This document shows, in pieces, positions 2,777 to 17,720 of a DNA stretch of 64,000 nt. This stretch comes from Mycolicibacterium tokaiense (GTDB taxonomy: Bacteria; Actinomycetota; Actinomycetes; Mycobacteriales; Mycobacteriaceae). The notes under the pieces were generated by a model. It did no database searches, was not told the DNA's origin, and was given only the letters and a program-made list of their open reading frames with translations. Within the stretch, counting starts at the first letter, position 1, and each line of letters opens with the position of its first letter. The position numbers and the translations under genes were made by a program. The stretch spans positions 1,116,001 through 1,180,000 of the forward strand of contig NZ_AP022600.1 of assembly GCF_010725885.1 (NCBI RefSeq), given 5' to 3'.

Positions 2777-3559
2777 ATGAGAGACCATGGACGGATGTGT
2801 GCCCAACGAGGAGCCGAGTCGGTGGATGAATCCACCCTGGGCCCCGCGGACGGCTCCGGCCGTTACCTGCACCGGCGGGTGACCAGCTTCCGGTCCCGGC
2901 GCTCGACCCTGACCGACACCCAGCAGAGCACCTGGGACCGGCTGTGGCCGCAGCTCGGGACCCAGGCCCGGTGGGGCGAGGAAGCCCCGGCCGAGCCGCT
3001 GGACGCCCAGGCATGGTTCGGCCGCCGCGCGCCGCTGGTCCTGGAGATCGGCTGCGGCACCGGTACCTCCACCTTGGCGATGGCCCAGGACGAGCCGCAG
3101 ATCGACGTCATTGCCGTCGAGGTCTACAAGCGCGGACTGGCTCAGCTGCTCTCGGCGATCGATCGCGAGCAGGTGCCGAACATCCGGCTGGTCCGTGGGG
3201 ACGCCGTTGACGTGCTCGAACACCTCCTGGTCCCCGGCATGCTCACCGGCGTGCGGGTGTTCTTCCCGGACCCCTGGCCCAAGTCGCGGCACCACAAGCG
3301 CCGCTTCCTGCAGTCGGCCAACGTCGCGATGATCGCCGACCGGCTGCGCCCCGGCGGAATCCTGCACGCCGCCACCGACCACGCCGGCTACGCCGAACAG
3401 ATCGCCGCGGTGGGCGACGCCGAACCGCTGCTGCGCCGCGTCCCCGCCGATCGGGTGGCGACCCTGCCCATCTCGGTGACCCGCCCGGTCACCAAGTACG
3501 AGGGCAAGGCCCAGCACGCCGGCAGCGCGGTGGCCGAGCTGCTCTGGGAGCGCGTGTGA
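2777..3559 (+). CDS. trmB: tRNA (guanine-46-N7)-methyltransferase
   Basis: This 260-residue class I SAM methyltransferase makes m7G46 in the variable loop of tRNAs. The SAM-binding motif LEIGCGTGT is at residues 89-97. The family signature PDPWPK, followed by a basic RHHKRR stretch, is at about 164-176, and the C-terminal TKYEGKA motif is present. The chosen ATG gives an N-terminus similar to Rv0208c; an alternative ATG is 18 bases downstream. It overlaps the next gene by 4 bases (GTGA), so the two are translationally coupled. The start lies 121 bases from the divergent Rv0209-like gene. Confidence 0.95.
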   Translation: MRDHGRMCAQRGAESVDESTLGPADGSGRYLHRRVTSFRSRRSTLTDTQQSTWDRLWPQLGTQARWGEEAPAEPLDAQAWFGRRAPLVLEIGCGTGTSTLAMAQDEPQIDVIAVEVYKRGLAQLLSAIDREQVPNIRLVRGDAVDVLEHLLVPGMLTGVRVFFPDPWPKSRHHKRRFLQSANVAMIADRLRPGGILHAATDHAGYAEQIAAVGDAEPLLRRVPADRVATLPISVTRPVTKYEGKAQHAGSAVAELLWERV

Positions 3560-4230
3560 GCATCGTCGAAGACCAAGAGGACCTGGAGCACGAACCCGAG
3601 GCGGCGCCCCGTCACGACCGGGTGCTGCTGGTGTGGGACGCCCCCAACCTGGACATGGGGCTGGGCGCCATCCTGGGTGGCCGACCCACCGCCGCGCACC
3701 GCCCCCGCTTCGACGCCCTGGGTCGCTGGCTGCTGGGCCGCACGGCCGACATCTCCCCCGGCCGGGGAACGCTGGAGCCGGAGGCCACCGTCTTCACCAA
3801 TATCGCCCCTGGCAGCGCCGATGTGGTGCGGCCCTGGGTGGAAGCACTACGCAACGTGGGGTTCGCGGTGTTCGCGAAACCCAAGGTCGACGACGACAGC
3901 GACGTCGATGTCGACATGCTCAACCACATCTCGCTGCGGCGCAGCGAGGGTCTGGCAGCGCTGATCGTGGCCTCCGCCGACGGTCAGGCGTTCCGCCAGC
4001 CGTTGGAGGAGATCGCCCGCGACGACGGGACCCCGGTGCACGTGCTCGGATTTCGCGAACATGCGAGCTGGGCGCTAGCGTCGGATACCTTGGAGTTCGT
4101 CGACCTGGAGGATATTCCCGGCGTGTTCCGGGAACCGCTTCCGCGAATAGGACTGGATTCGCTTCCAGACGAGGGAGCGTGGCTGCAGCCGTTTCGGCCG
4201 TTGTCGTCGTTGCTGGCGTCCCGGGCTTAA
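3556..4230 (+). CDS. NYN (PIN-like) domain ribonuclease-like protein (Rv0207c-like)
   Basis: This 224-residue protein starts at a GTG overlapping the trmB stop. The N-terminus has the NYN/LabA-like motif VWDAPNLD (residues 26-33), with Asp28 and Asn31 as expected for the metal site. An acidic DSDVDVDM segment lies around 118-125 and a SADGQAF segment follows. NYN domains share the PIN/FLAP nuclease fold and act in RNA processing, so a tRNA- or RNA-directed nuclease co-expressed with TrmB is a reasonable inference. There is no signal peptide or membrane segment. It lies directly upstream of mmpL3, as in M. tuberculosis. Confidence 0.85.
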   Translation: MSIVEDQEDLEHEPEAAPRHDRVLLVWDAPNLDMGLGAILGGRPTAAHRPRFDALGRWLLGRTADISPGRGTLEPEATVFTNIAPGSADVVRPWVEALRNVGFAVFAKPKVDDDSDVDVDMLNHISLRRSEGLAALIVASADGQAFRQPLEEIARDDGTPVHVLGFREHASWALASDTLEFVDLEDIPGVFREPLPRIGLDSLPDEGAWLQPFRPLSSLLASRA

Positions 4231-4292: not shown

Positions 4293-7200
4293 GTGTTCGC
4301 CTGGTGGGGTCGCACGGTGTACCGCTTCCGATATCTGGTCATCGGAATCATGGTCGCGCTCTGCGTCGGCAGCGGCATCTACGGGTTCAGCCTGGGCCAG
4401 CACGTCACGCAGAGTGGCTTTTACGACGAGGGCAGTGATTCCGTCCACGCGTCGGTGGTCGCCGACGAGGCCTACGGCCGCGACACGTCGTCGCACATCA
4501 TCGGGGTGTACACCGCCCCCGAAGGCAAGACGGTCGAGGACCCGGCCTTCCAGAAGGAGATCGTCGACAGCCTCGACAAGCTGCAGGCCGACCATCCCGA
4601 TGAGGTGCTGCGGTCGATCGGCTACTTCCGCAGCCCCGAGCTGCTGGACAACATGTCCGACGCGGACAAGAAGCACGCGTTCATGTCGATCCAGCTCAAG
4701 GGCGACAACGACGACACCATCCTGAACAACTACAAAAAGGTCGAACCGGACCTGCTGAAGTTGCGCGACGAGGGCATCGACGTCCAGTACGCCGGTCTGC
4801 AGCCGCTGGCCAACGAACTCACCGGCACCATCGGCGAGGATCAACAGCGCGCCGAGGTGGCGGCCATCCCGCTGGTGTCCGTCGTGCTGTTCTTCGTGTT
4901 CGGCACCGTGGTCGCCGCCGCCCTGCCGGCGTTCATCGGCGGCCTGACCATCCTGGGCGCTCTCGGCATCATGCGGTTTGCCGCCGACTTCATCCCGGTG
5001 CACTTCTTCGCCCAGCCCGTGGTGACGCTGATCGGTCTCGGCATCGCGATCGACTACGGCCTGTTCATCGTGAGCCGGTTCCGCGAGGAGATCGCCGAGG
5101 GCTACGACACCGAGGTGGCCATCCGGAGAACCATGATGACCTCGGGCCGCACCGTGGTGTTCTCCGCAGTCATCATCGTGGCGTCCTCGGTACCGCTGCT
5201 GCTGTTCCCACAGGGCTTCCTGAAGTCCATCACCTACGCGATCATCGCCTCGGTCATGCTGGCGGCCATCCTGTCGATCACCGTGCTGGCCGCCGCACTG
5301 GCCATCCTCGGTCCCCGGGTCGACGCACTCGGTGTGAAGATGCTGCTGCGGTTCACCGCTCCGGACACCATCCATTCGGATCCCGCGGCCACCAAGACCA
5401 ACCCCTTCGCGGTGGCCGCCATGCCGCTGGGGCTGCTGCTGCCGCCCGTCGGCATCGCCGCCGGCCACCTGGCCCGCCACCAGATCCGCCGCACCCAGGA
5501 CAAGGGTGCCCAGTTCGCCCTCATCGGGCTGATCCTCGGCTATGTCAGCATGGCCGCCTGGGTCGGCTACGGCCTCTATGAGCTGTACCGCTCGGGCTCC
5601 GTCAGCTCGGTCATCGTGTGGCTCCTGGTCGGTATCGCCGTCTTCGTCTTCGGCGCCGTTCTGTTGCTCTCGATTGCGCGGTACGTCCCAGGGTTCCGCA
5701 AGCCGTTCGAATGGTGGCTGAACTGGCTGGCCGAGAAGACGCAGAAGACCAAGACCCGCGAAGAGGTCGAGAAGGGCTTCTGGGGAAAGTTGGTCAACCG
5801 CGTGATGAAGCGGCCGGCCATGTTCGCCATCCCGATCATCATCGTCATGGTGGTGCTGGTGATCCCGCTGGGTCAGCTGGCCCTGGGCGGTATCAGCGAG
5901 AAGTACCTGCCCCCGGACAACTCGGTGCGCGTGGCACAGGAGGAGTTCGACCGGACCTTCCCCGGCTTCCGCACCGAGCCCCTGACCATGGTCATCCAGA
6001 GCGACGACGGCTCGCCGGTCACCGACGACGAGATCGCCGCCGTGCGCAGCAAGGCCATGGACGTCCCCGGCTTCATCGACCCGGACAACGATCCGGACAA
6101 GATGTGGACCGAACGGCCGTATCTGGATGGCGCGTCGAAGGACCCGTCGGTCCGGGTGATCCAGAACGGCCTGGAGAACCGCAACGACGCCGCCCAGAAA
6201 CTCGAGGAGTTGCGCGCGATCGCCCCGACTCCCGGGGTGACCGTGTCCGTCGGCGGCACGCCGGCCCTGGAACAGGACAGCATCCAGAGTCTGTTCGACA
6301 AGCTGCCACTGATGGTGGTGGTGCTGATCGTGACGACGACCATCCTGATGTTCCTGGCGTTCGGCTCGGTGGTGCTGCCCATCAAGGCCGCGCTGATGAG
6401 TGCGCTCACCCTGGGATCGACCATGGGCATCTTGACGTGGATGTTCGTCGAAGGCCACGGATCCGGGCTGATGAACTACACCCCACAGCCGCTGATGGCA
6501 CCGATGATCGGCCTGATCATCGCGGTGATCTGGGGGTTGTCCACGGACTACGAGGTGTTCCTGGTGTCCCGCATGGTCGAGGCCCGCGAACGCGGGATGT
6601 CGACAGCGGAGGCCATCCGGATCGGCACGGCCACCACCGGCCGCCTGATCACCGGCGCTGCCCTGGTGCTGGCGGTGGTCGCCGGTGCGTTCGTCTTCTC
6701 CGACCTGGTGATGATGAAGTACCTGGCCTTCGGCCTGCTGATCGCACTGCTGTTGGACGCCACCGTGATCCGGATGTTCCTGGTCCCCGCGATCATGAAG
6801 ATGCTCGGCGACGACTGCTGGTGGGCGCCGCGCTGGATGAAGCGCATCCAGGTCAAGATCGGGCTGGGCGAGACCCACCTGCCCGACGAACGCAAGCGTG
6901 TGGTGGCTCCGGAGAGCGACGACCGCGAACTCGTGGGCGCGGGCACGGCGGCGGCCCCCCGCAACCGTCCGCCGCATGACCCGACCCATCCCGCACCCGC
7001 CGGGCCGCGCCCGCGGCCCAGTCGCCCGCTCCCGCCGCCCGGCGAGGCCGGTGCCACCACCCGGATCCCCACCCCGCCCCCGGCGGCTCCCGGCGATCCG
7101 CGCCTCGGCAACGACGACGCCCCCACCACGCGGTTCTCGTCAGCCCGTAATGCCGTGCGCAACGCCGTCTCCGGTGCGGGCACCCGGGCGCCGCGCCCGC

Positions 7201-7553
7201 CGCAAGGCGGCGCCGGCGAGCGGGAGATCGAGTCCTGGCTCGGCGAGCTGCGCGGCAAGCCCGGTGCCGGCGCTCAGCAACCACCGGTGCAGCCGCCGTC
7301 GGCGGAGCCCACCCGCTCGATGGGCCCCTCCGGCGACGACGCCGAAGGCGCCACCACCGCGTTCGCCGCGCAGCCGCAGGCCGAGGCTGACGACGAGACC
7401 GCCACCCGGGCCATCCCGGTGGCCAAGCCGCGCGATGCGGATGCGGCCACCGAGAAGATGAACGCCCGCGGCGAGTCCGAGGAGAAGCGGCAGCGTCGCG
7501 GCGGCGGAGTCAGTGCTCAGGACCTGCTGCGCCGCGAAGGCCGCAAGCTCTAA
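4293..7553 (+). CDS. mmpL3: MmpL3 trehalose monomycolate transporter with an extra membrane insertion
   Basis: This 1086-residue RND transporter flips/exports trehalose monomycolate across the inner membrane and is essential in mycobacteria. It uses a GTG start with TTAGGAG 5 bases upstream. The proton-relay Asp-Tyr pairs are present: D254-Y255 (AIDYGLF) and D752-Y753 (STDYEVF), equivalent to D256/Y257 and D645/Y646 of M. smegmatis. The long Pro/Thr-rich cytoplasmic tail ends in SAQDLLRREGR as in other mycobacteria. Oddity: residues about 354-467, between TM6 and TM7, are an insertion absent from the MmpL3 proteins I know. It contains three hydrophobic segments and a DUF4190-like HLARHQIRR loop. 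The frame is uninterrupted across it. Confidence 0.97.
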   Translation: MFAWWGRTVYRFRYLVIGIMVALCVGSGIYGFSLGQHVTQSGFYDEGSDSVHASVVADEAYGRDTSSHIIGVYTAPEGKTVEDPAFQKEIVDSLDKLQADHPDEVLRSIGYFRSPELLDNMSDADKKHAFMSIQLKGDNDDTILNNYKKVEPDLLKLRDEGIDVQYAGLQPLANELTGTIGEDQQRAEVAAIPLVSVVLFFVFGTVVAAALPAFIGGLTILGALGIMRFAADFIPVHFFAQPVVTLIGLGIAIDYGLFIVSRFREEIAEGYDTEVAIRRTMMTSGRTVVFSAVIIVASSVPLLLFPQGFLKSITYAIIASVMLAAILSITVLAAALAILGPRVDALGVKMLLRFTAPDTIHSDPAATKTNPFAVAAMPLGLLLPPVGIAAGHLARHQIRRTQDKGAQFALIGLILGYVSMAAWVGYGLYELYRSGSVSSVIVWLLVGIAVFVFGAVLLLSIARYVPGFRKPFEWWLNWLAEKTQKTKTREEVEKGFWGKLVNRVMKRPAMFAIPIIIVMVVLVIPLGQLALGGISEKYLPPDNSVRVAQEEFDRTFPGFRTEPLTMVIQSDDGSPVTDDEIAAVRSKAMDVPGFIDPDNDPDKMWTERPYLDGASKDPSVRVIQNGLENRNDAAQKLEELRAIAPTPGVTVSVGGTPALEQDSIQSLFDKLPLMVVVLIVTTTILMFLAFGSVVLPIKAALMSALTLGSTMGILTWMFVEGHGSGLMNYTPQPLMAPMIGLIIAVIWGLSTDYEVFLVSRMVEARERGMSTAEAIRIGTATTGRLITGAALVLAVVAGAFVFSDLVMMKYLAFGLLIALLLDATVIRMFLVPAIMKMLGDDCWWAPRWMKRIQVKIGLGETHLPDERKRVVAPESDDRELVGAGTAAAPRNRPPHDPTHPAPAGPRPRPSRPLPPPGEAGATTRIPTPPPAAPGDPRLGNDDAPTTRFSSARNAVRNAVSGAGTRAPRPPQGGAGEREIESWLGELRGKPGAGAQQPPVQPPSAEPTRSMGPSGDDAEGATTAFAAQPQAEADDETATRAIPVAKPRDADAATEKMNARGESEEKRQRRGGGVSAQDLLRREGRKL

Positions 7554-14741: not shown

Positions 14742-17720
14742 ATGATGCGACTGAGCAGCCTGTTACGCAGGTTCCGCTGGTTGGTCTTCGCGGCGTGGGT
14801 GCTGGCGCTGGTGCCGGCCGTCTGGCTGATTCTCACCCAGTCGAGCAACCTGACCGGCGGTGGTTTCGAAGTCGAGGGTTCGCAGTCGCTGCACGTGCAG
14901 TACGAGATCGAGGATCACTTTCCCGACGAAGGCGCCTCGCCGCTGGCGCTGGTGGCCGCTCCGCGCGCCGACGCCAGCTACCAGGACATGACCGCGGCGG
15001 TGGCCGAGCTGGAACGCATGGCGGCCGAGGTGCCCAGCGTCACCATCGTGCCCAACCCCGTCCAACCTCCGCCGCAGCCCGACCGGCCCTATGTGGTGTC
15101 GCTGAAGCTGGGCTTCGACAACAGCGGCGCGGTCGACACCGCCAAGCAGCTGCGCGAAAAGGTCGGCATCAGCGGCGAGCAACCCGGTGAGACTGCCGAG
15201 GGCAAGGTTCGGCTGTACGTGATCGGCCAAGGCGCGTTGGGCGCGGCCGCCTCCGAGTCCACCAAACACGACATCGCCGAAGCCGAGAAGTGGAACCTGC
15301 CGATCGTCCTGGCGGTGCTGCTGGCCGTGTTCGGTTCGCTGGCCGCGGCGGCCATCCCGCTGCTCATCGGCATCTGCACCGTGGTGGTGACCATGGGGCT
15401 GGTCTTCCTGCTGTCGATGTTCACCACCATGTCGGTGTTCGTGACCTCCACGGTCACGATGCTCGGCATCGCGTTGGCCATCGACTACTCCCTGTTCATC
15501 CTGATGCGGTTCCGCGAAGAACTGCGCGCGGGTCGCGACGTCCAGCAGGCCACCGACGCCGCGATGGCCACCTCGGGTCTGGCGGTGGTGCTCTCCGGTG
15601 CCACCGTCATCGCTTCGGTGACGGGGCTCTATCTGATCAACACCCCGGTGCTGAACTCGATGGCCACCGGCGCCATCCTGGCGGTCGCGGTGGCGGTGCT
15701 GACGTCGGCGACCCTCATCCCGGCGGTGCTGACCACCTTCGGCCGCGCCGCCGCCAAACGGTCCCGGGTGCTGCACTGGGGCCGGCGGGCCGAAACCACC
15801 CAGTCCCGGTTCTGGACCCGGTGGATCGGCGGGGTGATGCGCCGGCCGTGGCTCTCGGCGCTGGGCGCGACGGTGGTGTTGCTGGTGATGGCCGCGCCGG
15901 TGCTGTCGATGTCGCTGGGCAACAGCATGCTGCGCCAGTTCGACGCCACCCACGAGATCCGCGGCGGTGTGGGCGCGGCGGCCGAGGCACTGGGACCCGG
16001 TGCGCTGGGCCCGGTCCGCGTGCTGGTCACCTTCCCCGAGGGCAACGCCGGTGCGCCGCCGAACATGGCCGTCGTCGACGCCATCGGCGCGGAGATGGAC
16101 CGGGCGGTCAACGTCGTGTCGGTGACCCCCGCGGTGGTCTCCGATGACGGGCGCAGCGCCCTGCTGTCCGCCGTGCTGGCCGTCGACCCCGAGGACATCG
16201 CCGCCCGCCAGACCATTGACCTCCTGCGCGACCAGTTGCCCCGCGTGCCCGGCGCCGAGGGGGTGTCCGTCGACGTCGGCGGCCCCACTGCGTTGATCAA
16301 GGACTTCGACGACCGGGTGTCGCACATGGAGCCGTGGGTGTTCGTGTTCGTCGCCCTGATCGCGTTCCTGATGTTGCTGGCCGCCATCCGCTCGGTGTTC
16401 CTGGCGCTCAAGGGCGTGGTGATGACCGTGCTGTCGGTGGCCGCGGCCTACGGCAGCCTGGTGGTGATCTTCCAGTGGGGCTGGCTGCAGGACCTGGGCT
16501 TCGAACCGCTGGGCTCCATCGACAGCACCATCCCGCCGCTGGTCCTGGCGCTGACCTTCGGGCTGTCGATGGACTACGAGATCTTCCTGCTGACGCGGGT
16601 CCGCGAGCGGTTCTTGCAATCCGGCGACACCAAGGACGCGGTGGCCTACGGGGTGTCGACCAGCGCCCGCACCATCACCAGCGCGGCTCTGATCATGATC
16701 GCGGTGTTCATCGGCTTCGCGTTCGCCGGTATGCCGCTGGTGGCCCAGCTGGGGGTGGCGTGTGCGGTGGCCATCGCGGTGGACGCCACGGTGGTCCGAC
16801 TGGTGCTGGTGCCCGCCCTGATGGCGATGTTCGACCAGTGGAACTGGTGGCTGCCCAAGGGGCTGGGCCGCATCCTGCCGTCGGTGGATTTCGAGAAACC
16901 GCTGCCGAAGGTCGACCTGGGCGACCTGGTGATCATCCCCGACGACATCTCCGCACTGGTGGCGCCCAACGCCGATATGCGGATGGTGGTCAAGTCGGCC
17001 GCCAAGCTCAAGGACCTGGCTCCCGACGCCATCACCGTGGCGGACCCGCTGGCGTTCAGCGGGTGCACCGGGCTCTCCGCCCTGACCACCGCCTTCAAGG
17101 CCAAGGTGAAGGGGCTCGACGAGGCCCGCGCGGTCAGCGCCCGGCAAGCCCGCCTGGGGCTGCCGCTGCGCCGCAACCGCAGCGACCGGGCCCAGGCGTC
17201 CGAGGGCAACGGCCAGGCCACGGTGCGGGTGCACCGGCCGGTCCACCCGGTCACGATGTGGCGCGGGCGGCTGTCGGTGGCGCTCGATGCCCTCAGCGTG
17301 CAGAACGACCCCGCCGGCGACTATCACCACGCCCTGCGTCGACAGTGCCCGCTGGAGACCACGAATGTGCAGTTGCCCACCGGGGACCGGCTGCGCATCC
17401 CCACCGGCGCGGAGACCATTCGGCTCAAGGGCTACCTGATCATGTGCCGCAACCACCGTCGCGACTTCGCCGACTTCGCAGACCTGGTGGATGCCATGGA
17501 GCCGCAGACGGCGGCGGTCGCGCTGGGCACCATCGACAGGTACTACTCTGGGCAACCGACCGATCGACAGTGGGTCGCCACCCAGTTGCTCCGCAGGCTC
17601 TCCGATCCCCATCCCGATGATGCGGGCGACGACGCCGGTCCCGACGCTGAGGCAGACTGGGAGAAGGTCAGGCAGCGGTGTCTGGCAGTGGCCGTGGCGA
17701 TGCTGGAGGAGGCGAGGTGA
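14742..17720 (+). CDS. mmpL11: MmpL11 RND family lipid transporter
   Basis: This 992-residue inner-membrane transporter has the N-terminus MMRLSSLLRRFRWLVF typical of MmpL11 (Rv0202c). It shows the two-repeat RND architecture with proton-relay pairs D248-Y249 (AIDYSLF) and D611-Y612 (SMDYEIF). MmpL11 exports monomeromycolyl diacylglycerol and mycolate wax esters and has been implicated with MmpL3 in heme uptake from Rv0203. The roughly 260-residue cytoplasmic tail is Arg/Asp-rich. The stop overlaps the next gene's GTG by four bases. A divergent 201-bp region separates it from the hemophore genes. Confidence 0.95.
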   Translation: MMRLSSLLRRFRWLVFAAWVLALVPAVWLILTQSSNLTGGGFEVEGSQSLHVQYEIEDHFPDEGASPLALVAAPRADASYQDMTAAVAELERMAAEVPSVTIVPNPVQPPPQPDRPYVVSLKLGFDNSGAVDTAKQLREKVGISGEQPGETAEGKVRLYVIGQGALGAAASESTKHDIAEAEKWNLPIVLAVLLAVFGSLAAAAIPLLIGICTVVVTMGLVFLLSMFTTMSVFVTSTVTMLGIALAIDYSLFILMRFREELRAGRDVQQATDAAMATSGLAVVLSGATVIASVTGLYLINTPVLNSMATGAILAVAVAVLTSATLIPAVLTTFGRAAAKRSRVLHWGRRAETTQSRFWTRWIGGVMRRPWLSALGATVVLLVMAAPVLSMSLGNSMLRQFDATHEIRGGVGAAAEALGPGALGPVRVLVTFPEGNAGAPPNMAVVDAIGAEMDRAVNVVSVTPAVVSDDGRSALLSAVLAVDPEDIAARQTIDLLRDQLPRVPGAEGVSVDVGGPTALIKDFDDRVSHMEPWVFVFVALIAFLMLLAAIRSVFLALKGVVMTVLSVAAAYGSLVVIFQWGWLQDLGFEPLGSIDSTIPPLVLALTFGLSMDYEIFLLTRVRERFLQSGDTKDAVAYGVSTSARTITSAALIMIAVFIGFAFAGMPLVAQLGVACAVAIAVDATVVRLVLVPALMAMFDQWNWWLPKGLGRILPSVDFEKPLPKVDLGDLVIIPDDISALVAPNADMRMVVKSAAKLKDLAPDAITVADPLAFSGCTGLSALTTAFKAKVKGLDEARAVSARQARLGLPLRRNRSDRAQASEGNGQATVRVHRPVHPVTMWRGRLSVALDALSVQNDPAGDYHHALRRQCPLETTNVQLPTGDRLRIPTGAETIRLKGYLIMCRNHRRDFADFADLVDAMEPQTAAVALGTIDRYYSGQPTDRQWVATQLLRRLSDPHPDDAGDDAGPDAEADWEKVRQRCLAVAVAMLEEAR

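Follow-up and report, generated by a model that had tools for sequence, protein, structure and literature searches.

The mmpL3 locus and the extent of the insert

MmpL3 has been described from Mycobacterium smegmatis and M. tuberculosis as a transporter with 12 membrane crossings. In mycobacteria it exports building blocks of the cell wall, and as an essential protein it ranks among the leading targets of antimycobacterial agents (PMC8752444, PMC10171966). We describe here an MmpL3 that carries an additional membrane module, encoded in a stretch of 64,000 nucleotides from Mycolicibacterium tokaiense (contig NZ_AP022600.1, positions 1,116,001 to 1,180,000 of the forward strand; hereafter the window, whose own numbering is used). 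The mmpL3 open reading frame (4293-7553) is open along its length, encodes 1086 aa and scores 1648.4 bits against NF052608, the NCBIfam MmpL3 equivalog model (cut-off 1400), and from this family membership the product would be a trehalose monomycolate exporter. A preliminary description, made from the sequence, had already named the protein MmpL3 and placed its two Asp-Tyr pairs at residues 254/255 and 752/753, and we arrive at the same assignments. The next-best match to the first 350 residues in the single-contig genome is 34% identical, and the gene lies in a locus common to insert-less relatives (TrmB-like, NYN, mmpL3, AI-2E and flippase-like genes). A second, distant MmpL-like match (29% identity) was seen in the mmpL3 neighbourhood at 14763-15743 on the + strand, within a 1036-aa frame.

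Alignment to M. smegmatis MmpL3 (PDB) yielded two blocks, query residues 1-354 and 476-1084, in which query 354 pairs with residue 356 and query 476 with residue 369, such that 121 residues stand against 12 (net +109). Against the MmpL3 of genome G167, the closest insert-less relative found, the alignment runs up to residue 353 and resumes at 465, leaving F354-Y464 as the extra segment, and two linker residues are absent from the window protein just after the insert. The extra segment previously proposed for residues 354-467 of the loop between transmembrane helices (TM) 6 and 7 is thus present with the expected net gain, and its end maps to residue 464.

The insert matches DUF4190 (PF13828) with 45.9 bits in the context of the whole protein and 50.6 bits as a cut segment (gathering cut-off 35), and all 40 inserts of alignment A2, the window's included, match this family (E <= 0.001). 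As the match ends at residue 424, it does not cover the whole insert; the earlier proposal of a DUF4190-type insertion therefore applies to residues 373-424, and the third hydrophobic stretch, with helix 439-464, lies outside it. That there are three such stretches, as had been noted, is borne out by 19-residue hydropathy maxima that start at about 371, 410 and 440, with a mean of 1.73 for the first stretch in the window and of up to 2.99 for the very hydrophobic one beyond DUF4190. A GHxAR motif is present in 52 of 52 distinct inserts. The insert (92%) and the flanking transporter cores (92-93%) hardly differ in GC content at third codon positions, so composition gives no sign of foreign origin.

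Table 1. Features of the mmpL3 locus in the window (residue numbers are those of the window's MmpL3)
Feature	Positions	Strand	Basis or remark
NYN-domain gene directly upstream of mmpL3	3556..4230	+	domain match; position
mmpL3, insert-bearing	4293..7553	+	GTG start, 1086 aa; sole MmpL3 found in genome
First Asp-Tyr pair, residues 254/255	5052..5057	+	
Arg342, near end of TM6	5316..5318	+	column comparison
Insert, residues 354-464, net +109 over canonical linker	5352..5684	+	alignments with M. smegmatis MmpL3 and G167
Short helix 371-382, first arm of likely re-entrant hairpin	5403..5438	+	predicted
DUF4190 (PF13828) match, residues 373-424	5409..5564	+	Pfam, above gathering score
Helix 384-401 after Pro384-Pro385 break, ending in GHxAR motif and basic loop	5442..5495	+	predicted; motif counts
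Basic loop 392-405	5466..5507	+	net charge +1 to +3 in 52/52 distinct inserts; taken as cytoplasmic
Full transmembrane helix 406-433	5508..5591	+	predicted
Full transmembrane helix 439-464, outside DUF4190 match	5607..5684	+	predicted
Helix 466-483, realigns with canonical linker before TM7	5688..5741	+	predicted; G167 alignment
TM7, helix 508-528	5814..5876	+	model
Second Asp-Tyr pair, residues 752/753	6546..6551	+	

A protein-database search for relatives of the insert, in which the 8000 candidates sharing most words were scored, revealed no clear stand-alone relative covering the third hydrophobic stretch among its best rows. An alignment with one protein of 156 aa, P0021, covers 77% of the insert, past DUF4190 weakly and across a 13-residue gap, and on its account a longer stand-alone ancestor may have existed. 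Other rows were rejected as stand-alone insert proteins, either because MmpL3 sequence adjoins the insert (P0001, P0002, P0004 and P0006-P0008) or because they fuse insert sequence with something unrelated on contigs shorter than 1 kb and may be chimeric (P0003 and P0005). Elsewhere in the M. tokaiense genome, DUF4190 shares a frame (locus L079, 772-1806, - strand) with what we take, from its motif, to be a cyclophilin-type prolyl isomerase, and occurs in two neighbouring frames with proline-rich N-terminal parts (locus L126, 329-772 and 776-1327, + strand).

Predicted topology of the insert-bearing transporter

An AlphaFold2 model of the protein superposes on solved MmpL3 over both halves (root mean square deviation 1.9 A, 753 residues), with the two six-helix halves of the resistance-nodulation-division (RND) fold in their native relation. 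The modelled helices of the insert (Table 1) suggest a re-entrant hairpin, broken at the Pro-Pro pair, that is followed by two full crossings; both loops flanking these two crossings are basic and the loop between them is not. The transporter topology is probably kept: the preliminary description had suspected as much from the Pro-Pro break, and the charges, the model and its superposition on MmpL3 favour this arrangement over the other outcome that it had raised, an inversion of the second half of the transporter by three crossings.

Distribution of the insert

A search for the segment across an even sample of 396 genomes of the genus, some of them incomplete, gave a match of some kind in 293, many of them to DUF4190 in shorter frames. 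By hand count, at least 69 of the 396, M. tokaiense included, encode the insert over all or nearly all of its length, within frames of 514-1248 residues, a number that is a lower bound because of the incomplete genomes; the weakest of these matches has an E-value of 2.0e-23 and the next match of any kind one of 1.6e-13. This recurrence greatly exceeds what chance would give. The segment is thus not a feature of most MmpL3 proteins, nor does its recurrence accord with an assembly artefact, these being the two outcomes by which the preliminary description would have been overturned. The insert is present in 19 of 75 named loci, including those of M. manitobense, M. sediminis, M. lacusdiani, M. 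hodleri and M. yunnanensis, and in the MmpL3 of M. gallinarum (protein P0068).

Linker lengths were compared in 153 MmpL3 rows (repeats of the same genome included, rows with less than 45% identity in the N part excluded), 4 of which lack the C part. In the other 149 rows the TM6-TM7 linker measures 19 residues (51 rows), 125-135 residues (84 rows) or less than 19 (14 rows, namely 13 from other genera and one Mycobacteroides), with none between. At the family level, a profile of the insert (128 positions) was searched against 401 genomes at E <= 1e-15; full-length matches (1-128) were confined to 13 genomes, each from the genus of the window, where the frames measure 1020-1248 residues, and the ten matches from other genera covered only profile positions 8-83 in frames of 154-437 residues.

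We also counted MmpL3 copies, using the first 350 residues, in 148 genomes selected for at least 98% completeness. Among these are 33 of the 69 insert-bearing genomes, and 32 of the 33 yielded one match at E <= 1e-120, the exception being G028. Tandem pairs, in which an insert-less copy lies directly upstream of an insert-bearing one, were seen at L001 (931-7309), L003 (691-7294) and L007 (574-7243), with cores 65-75% identical and both frames open. Second MmpL3 copies with frames of 864-902 aa lie on other contigs in G033, G143 and G170, where the main copy has a frame of 981 aa. Mycobacterial mmpL3 loci were also encountered on contigs of metagenome-assembled genomes labelled Bifidobacterium breve (L032 and L072), which are probably mislabelled or contaminated.

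Patchy occurrence and apparent exchange in place

The distribution of the insert proved to be patchy, a feature that the preliminary description did not foresee, any more than the apparent exchange of the insert by recombination. A tree of the MmpL3 core from which the insert was left out (65 of its 127 rows insert-bearing, some genomes repeated) implies at least 6 changes of state, and a tree of four flanking proteins (88 rows, species with both copies counted as insert-bearing) at least 9; support in these large trees is by the Shimodaira-Hasegawa-like approximate likelihood ratio test only. A set of 49 rows (23 insert-bearing, 26 insert-less) implies 8 changes, and the approximately unbiased (AU) test rejects a single insert-bearing clade (p-AU 1.2e-11). 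In both trees the window's mmpL3 and its flanks group with G056, which has the insert, and G167, which has none (support 100). The window's insert itself groups with those of G101, G106 and G065 (5 rows versus 37, 100/95, long branches), and its grouping with G101 and G106 was rejected by the core when tested. Comparison with G167 in blocks of 25 codons gave 77-96% nucleotide identity over residues 1-868, with lower values only for two incomplete blocks at the site, 67% (24 bases) and 47% (15 bases), indicating that the change was local. The tail of mmpL3 in G056 (locus L127) is 33-44% identical per block to window residues 935-1041 at the nucleotide level, versus 71-81% for the G167 tail, and looks like a different tail allele or a frameshift.

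A clearer case is L021, an insert-less mmpL3 that falls within an insert-bearing group of the core tree (support 99, 12 rows). Block by block up to residue 740, L021 and its sister L008 are 82-98% identical everywhere but at the site; residues 360-379 of L021 are 97% identical to the canonical L174 versus 65-69% to three sisters. Of 33 informative sites within residues 345-381, L021 shares 28 with L174 and 2 with L008; of the 415 in the rest of residues 1-760, it shares 105 with L174 and 276 with L008. Nine combinations of sister and donor gave Fisher p values of 4e-15 to 2e-4 (weakest with L022 as donor), which are descriptive because the tract was picked after a scan and its linker part is canonical in any insert-less protein. 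As deletion alone would not rebuild canonical linker codons, replacement by recombination fits L021, and from this case, the trees and the comparison with G167, recombination seems to exchange the module in place. Distributive conjugal transfer, which is reported to make mosaics in mycobacteria (PMC4202316), is a possible vehicle for such exchange. At residues 81-140 of L021, nucleotide identity to L174, L175 and L022 drops to 45-65%, as does that to L005 at residues 81-120 (63-65%). Most other blocks score much higher, so that the gene looks mosaic or fast-evolving there too.

Selection, divergence and co-variation

Nonsynonymous to synonymous substitution ratios (dN/dS), calculated by the Nei-Gojobori method for 12 close pairs, were 0.068-0.450 for the insert, 0.012-0.113 for the N core and 0.008-0.094 for the C core. 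With insert values under 0.5 in 12 of 12 pairs, the insert is under purifying selection. At a C-core identity of 84-86%, pairs that include a window-type insert average 45.5% insert identity (131 pairs), versus 60.8% for other insert-bearing pairs (384 pairs), which places the window's insert among the more divergent ones. The core column that co-varies most strongly with the insert, of those compared, is residue 342: 49 of 55 insert-bearing rows carry R there, and 57 of 59 insert-less rows of the genus carry N or H, counts that are not independent owing to shared ancestry. The window and G056 have R at this position and G167 has N.

Weighing an accessory role against the alternatives

On balance we lean towards the view that this is an MmpL3 with a membrane accessory module fused into its TM6-TM7 linker, exchanged between species by recombination and tuning MmpL3. 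The module would consist of a DUF4190 unit (the Pro-Pro-broken re-entrant hairpin, the cytoplasmic basic GHxAR loop and one crossing) and one crossing back to the cytoplasm, so that both transporter halves would keep their orientation and the protein would have 14 crossings instead of 12. Homology extends over the entire length of the inserts, so a single origin of the module is probable; it would be gained and lost in place via homologous recombination between mmpL3 alleles of different species. From a position next to the transporter, on its cytoplasmic or inner-leaflet face, it may tune partner docking, loading or stability, while the proton relay, of which it would not be a part, would be left intact; perhaps it functions as an accessory that has become fused to MmpL3. 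By position, the NYN gene upstream is the counterpart of Rv0207c, a cytoplasmic protein encoded adjacent to mmpL3 that bound M. tuberculosis MmpL3 in surface plasmon resonance (PMC6656915). A role of the module in oligomerisation was considered and is not favoured: according to two reports, oligomerisation of MmpL3 is not required for transport (PMC11481577), and its C-terminal end helps to form stable oligomers (PMC6656915). A bolder version, which we put forward tentatively as falling somewhat short of probable, holds that mmpL3 is two-state across the genus, with a linker of 19 or roughly 126 residues, that the cassette is exchanged by short gene-conversion tracts and that the module alters loading, assembly or regulation of MmpL3.

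Several observations weigh against an accessory module that moves by recombination. In 9 of 12 pairs the insert has a higher dN/dS than the N core, and in all 12 a higher one than the C core, indicating weaker constraint than on the transporter. No core position among the columns compared co-varies strictly with the insert, and residue 342, being near the site, may be co-adapted or may merely travel on the same tract. Some vertical inheritance is indicated by the correlation of insert distances with those of core and flanks (Spearman 0.40-0.49); the trees do not separate gains from losses; and no sequence emerged as the donor of the window's insert, the best match outside G056 being 52%. As to the fold, 27 of the 45 rows in the alignment behind the full-length model are insert-less, so that a canonical core was to be expected anyway, the blocks of the insert reach a predicted local distance difference test score (pLDDT) of only 67-81, and two of five models of the insert alone were poor (62.5 and 56.0).

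The alternatives differ widely in probability. An assembly or sequencing artefact, in favour of which nothing was found, is hardly conceivable given that 69 of 396 genomes share the insert at this very site. Three crossings, leaving the second half inverted or in dual topology, would be in keeping with the three hydrophobic stretches and the hydropathy of the first, but Pro384 is conserved in all 52 distinct inserts, modelling splits the first stretch into helices 371-382 and 384-401, with charged residues at the end of the latter, and the charge pattern around the last two crossings, the superposition of both halves on MmpL3 and the retention of both Asp-Tyr pairs make this arrangement very improbable. 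The side-by-side copies in L001, L003 and L007 could be taken to mean that the insert-bearing MmpL3 is a specialised paralogue of tandem origin, with species having kept one copy or the other. This is improbable as well, because 32 of the 33 insert-bearing genomes yielded a single MmpL3 match at E <= 1e-120, the insert-less members of the tandem pairs cluster with L028 and L043 in a divergent group (support 96), the window's core groups with insert-less G167 in both trees, and insert-less copies fall inside insert-bearing groups in core trees.

A serious rival, which we nevertheless consider unlikely, is that the insert is a passenger: a DUF4190 segment in an insertion-tolerant unstructured linker, harmless in the membrane, with no specific role and carried along with mmpL3 alleles. 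This would fit the unresolved or unstructured state of the linker in M. tuberculosis MmpL3, as described in PMC8752444 and PMC11481577, the fact that the insert was not found in 327 of 396 sampled genomes and its faster evolution relative to the core. Against it stand the low dN/dS in all 12 pairs, the invariant GHxAR motif and the occurrence of two linker lengths without intermediates in the rows examined, although membrane packing alone, without a specific role, could explain part of the constraint on the insert.

Relation to known proteins

Canonical MmpL3 (M. smegmatis 7n6b, M. tuberculosis 7nvh) shares with the window protein the predicted fold of both halves, the Asp-Tyr pairs and the family score, but has a short TM6-TM7 linker, unresolved in 7nvh, in place of the 111-residue membrane module. 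According to two reports, residues 343-377 of M. tuberculosis MmpL3 show no clear density (7nvh; PMC8752444) and residues 340-378 are called an unstructured cytoplasmic loop (PMC11481577); the module occupies this region. Database annotation already pairs PF03176 with PF13828 on insert-bearing proteins (20 of 20 rows), and in the open-licence literature we found no paper on the DUF4190-MmpL3 combination or naming DUF4190. The MmpL3 family and the DUF4190 domain are known, the combination is undescribed in the literature found and its evolutionary behaviour is unusual.

A module that is present in about a sixth of sampled genomes (69/396) and apparently exchanged at one exact site constitutes a natural experiment, a two-state variant of a major tuberculosis drug target whose extra membrane domain is seemingly swapped between species. 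Comparison of insert-bearing with insert-less sister species can reveal the role and partners of the disordered TM6-TM7 linker and show how far MmpL3 inhibitor data extend to other mycobacteria, and DUF4190, a family of unknown function, gains a place beside a known transporter. Stand-alone DUF4190 membrane proteins belong to the same Pfam family and have a similar motif region between hydrophobic stretches, but the insert has a further helix and lies inside a transporter. In its mode of action the module could be likened to AcrZ, a small accessory helix protein of the AcrB pump: each is an extra membrane element beside an RND transporter, AcrZ being a separate protein. CD225 (dispanin) proteins, like the DUF4190 unit as predicted here, combine a re-entrant segment with a loop and a single crossing; CD225 (PF04505) was not among the Pfam matches of the inserts, and hhalign gave a probability of 0.7% over 19 columns with shallow profiles. 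CD225 (dispanin-type) genes were observed 10-12 kb from mmpL3 in two relatives (G001:C192:38874, locus L245, and G006:C1:633800, locus L236).
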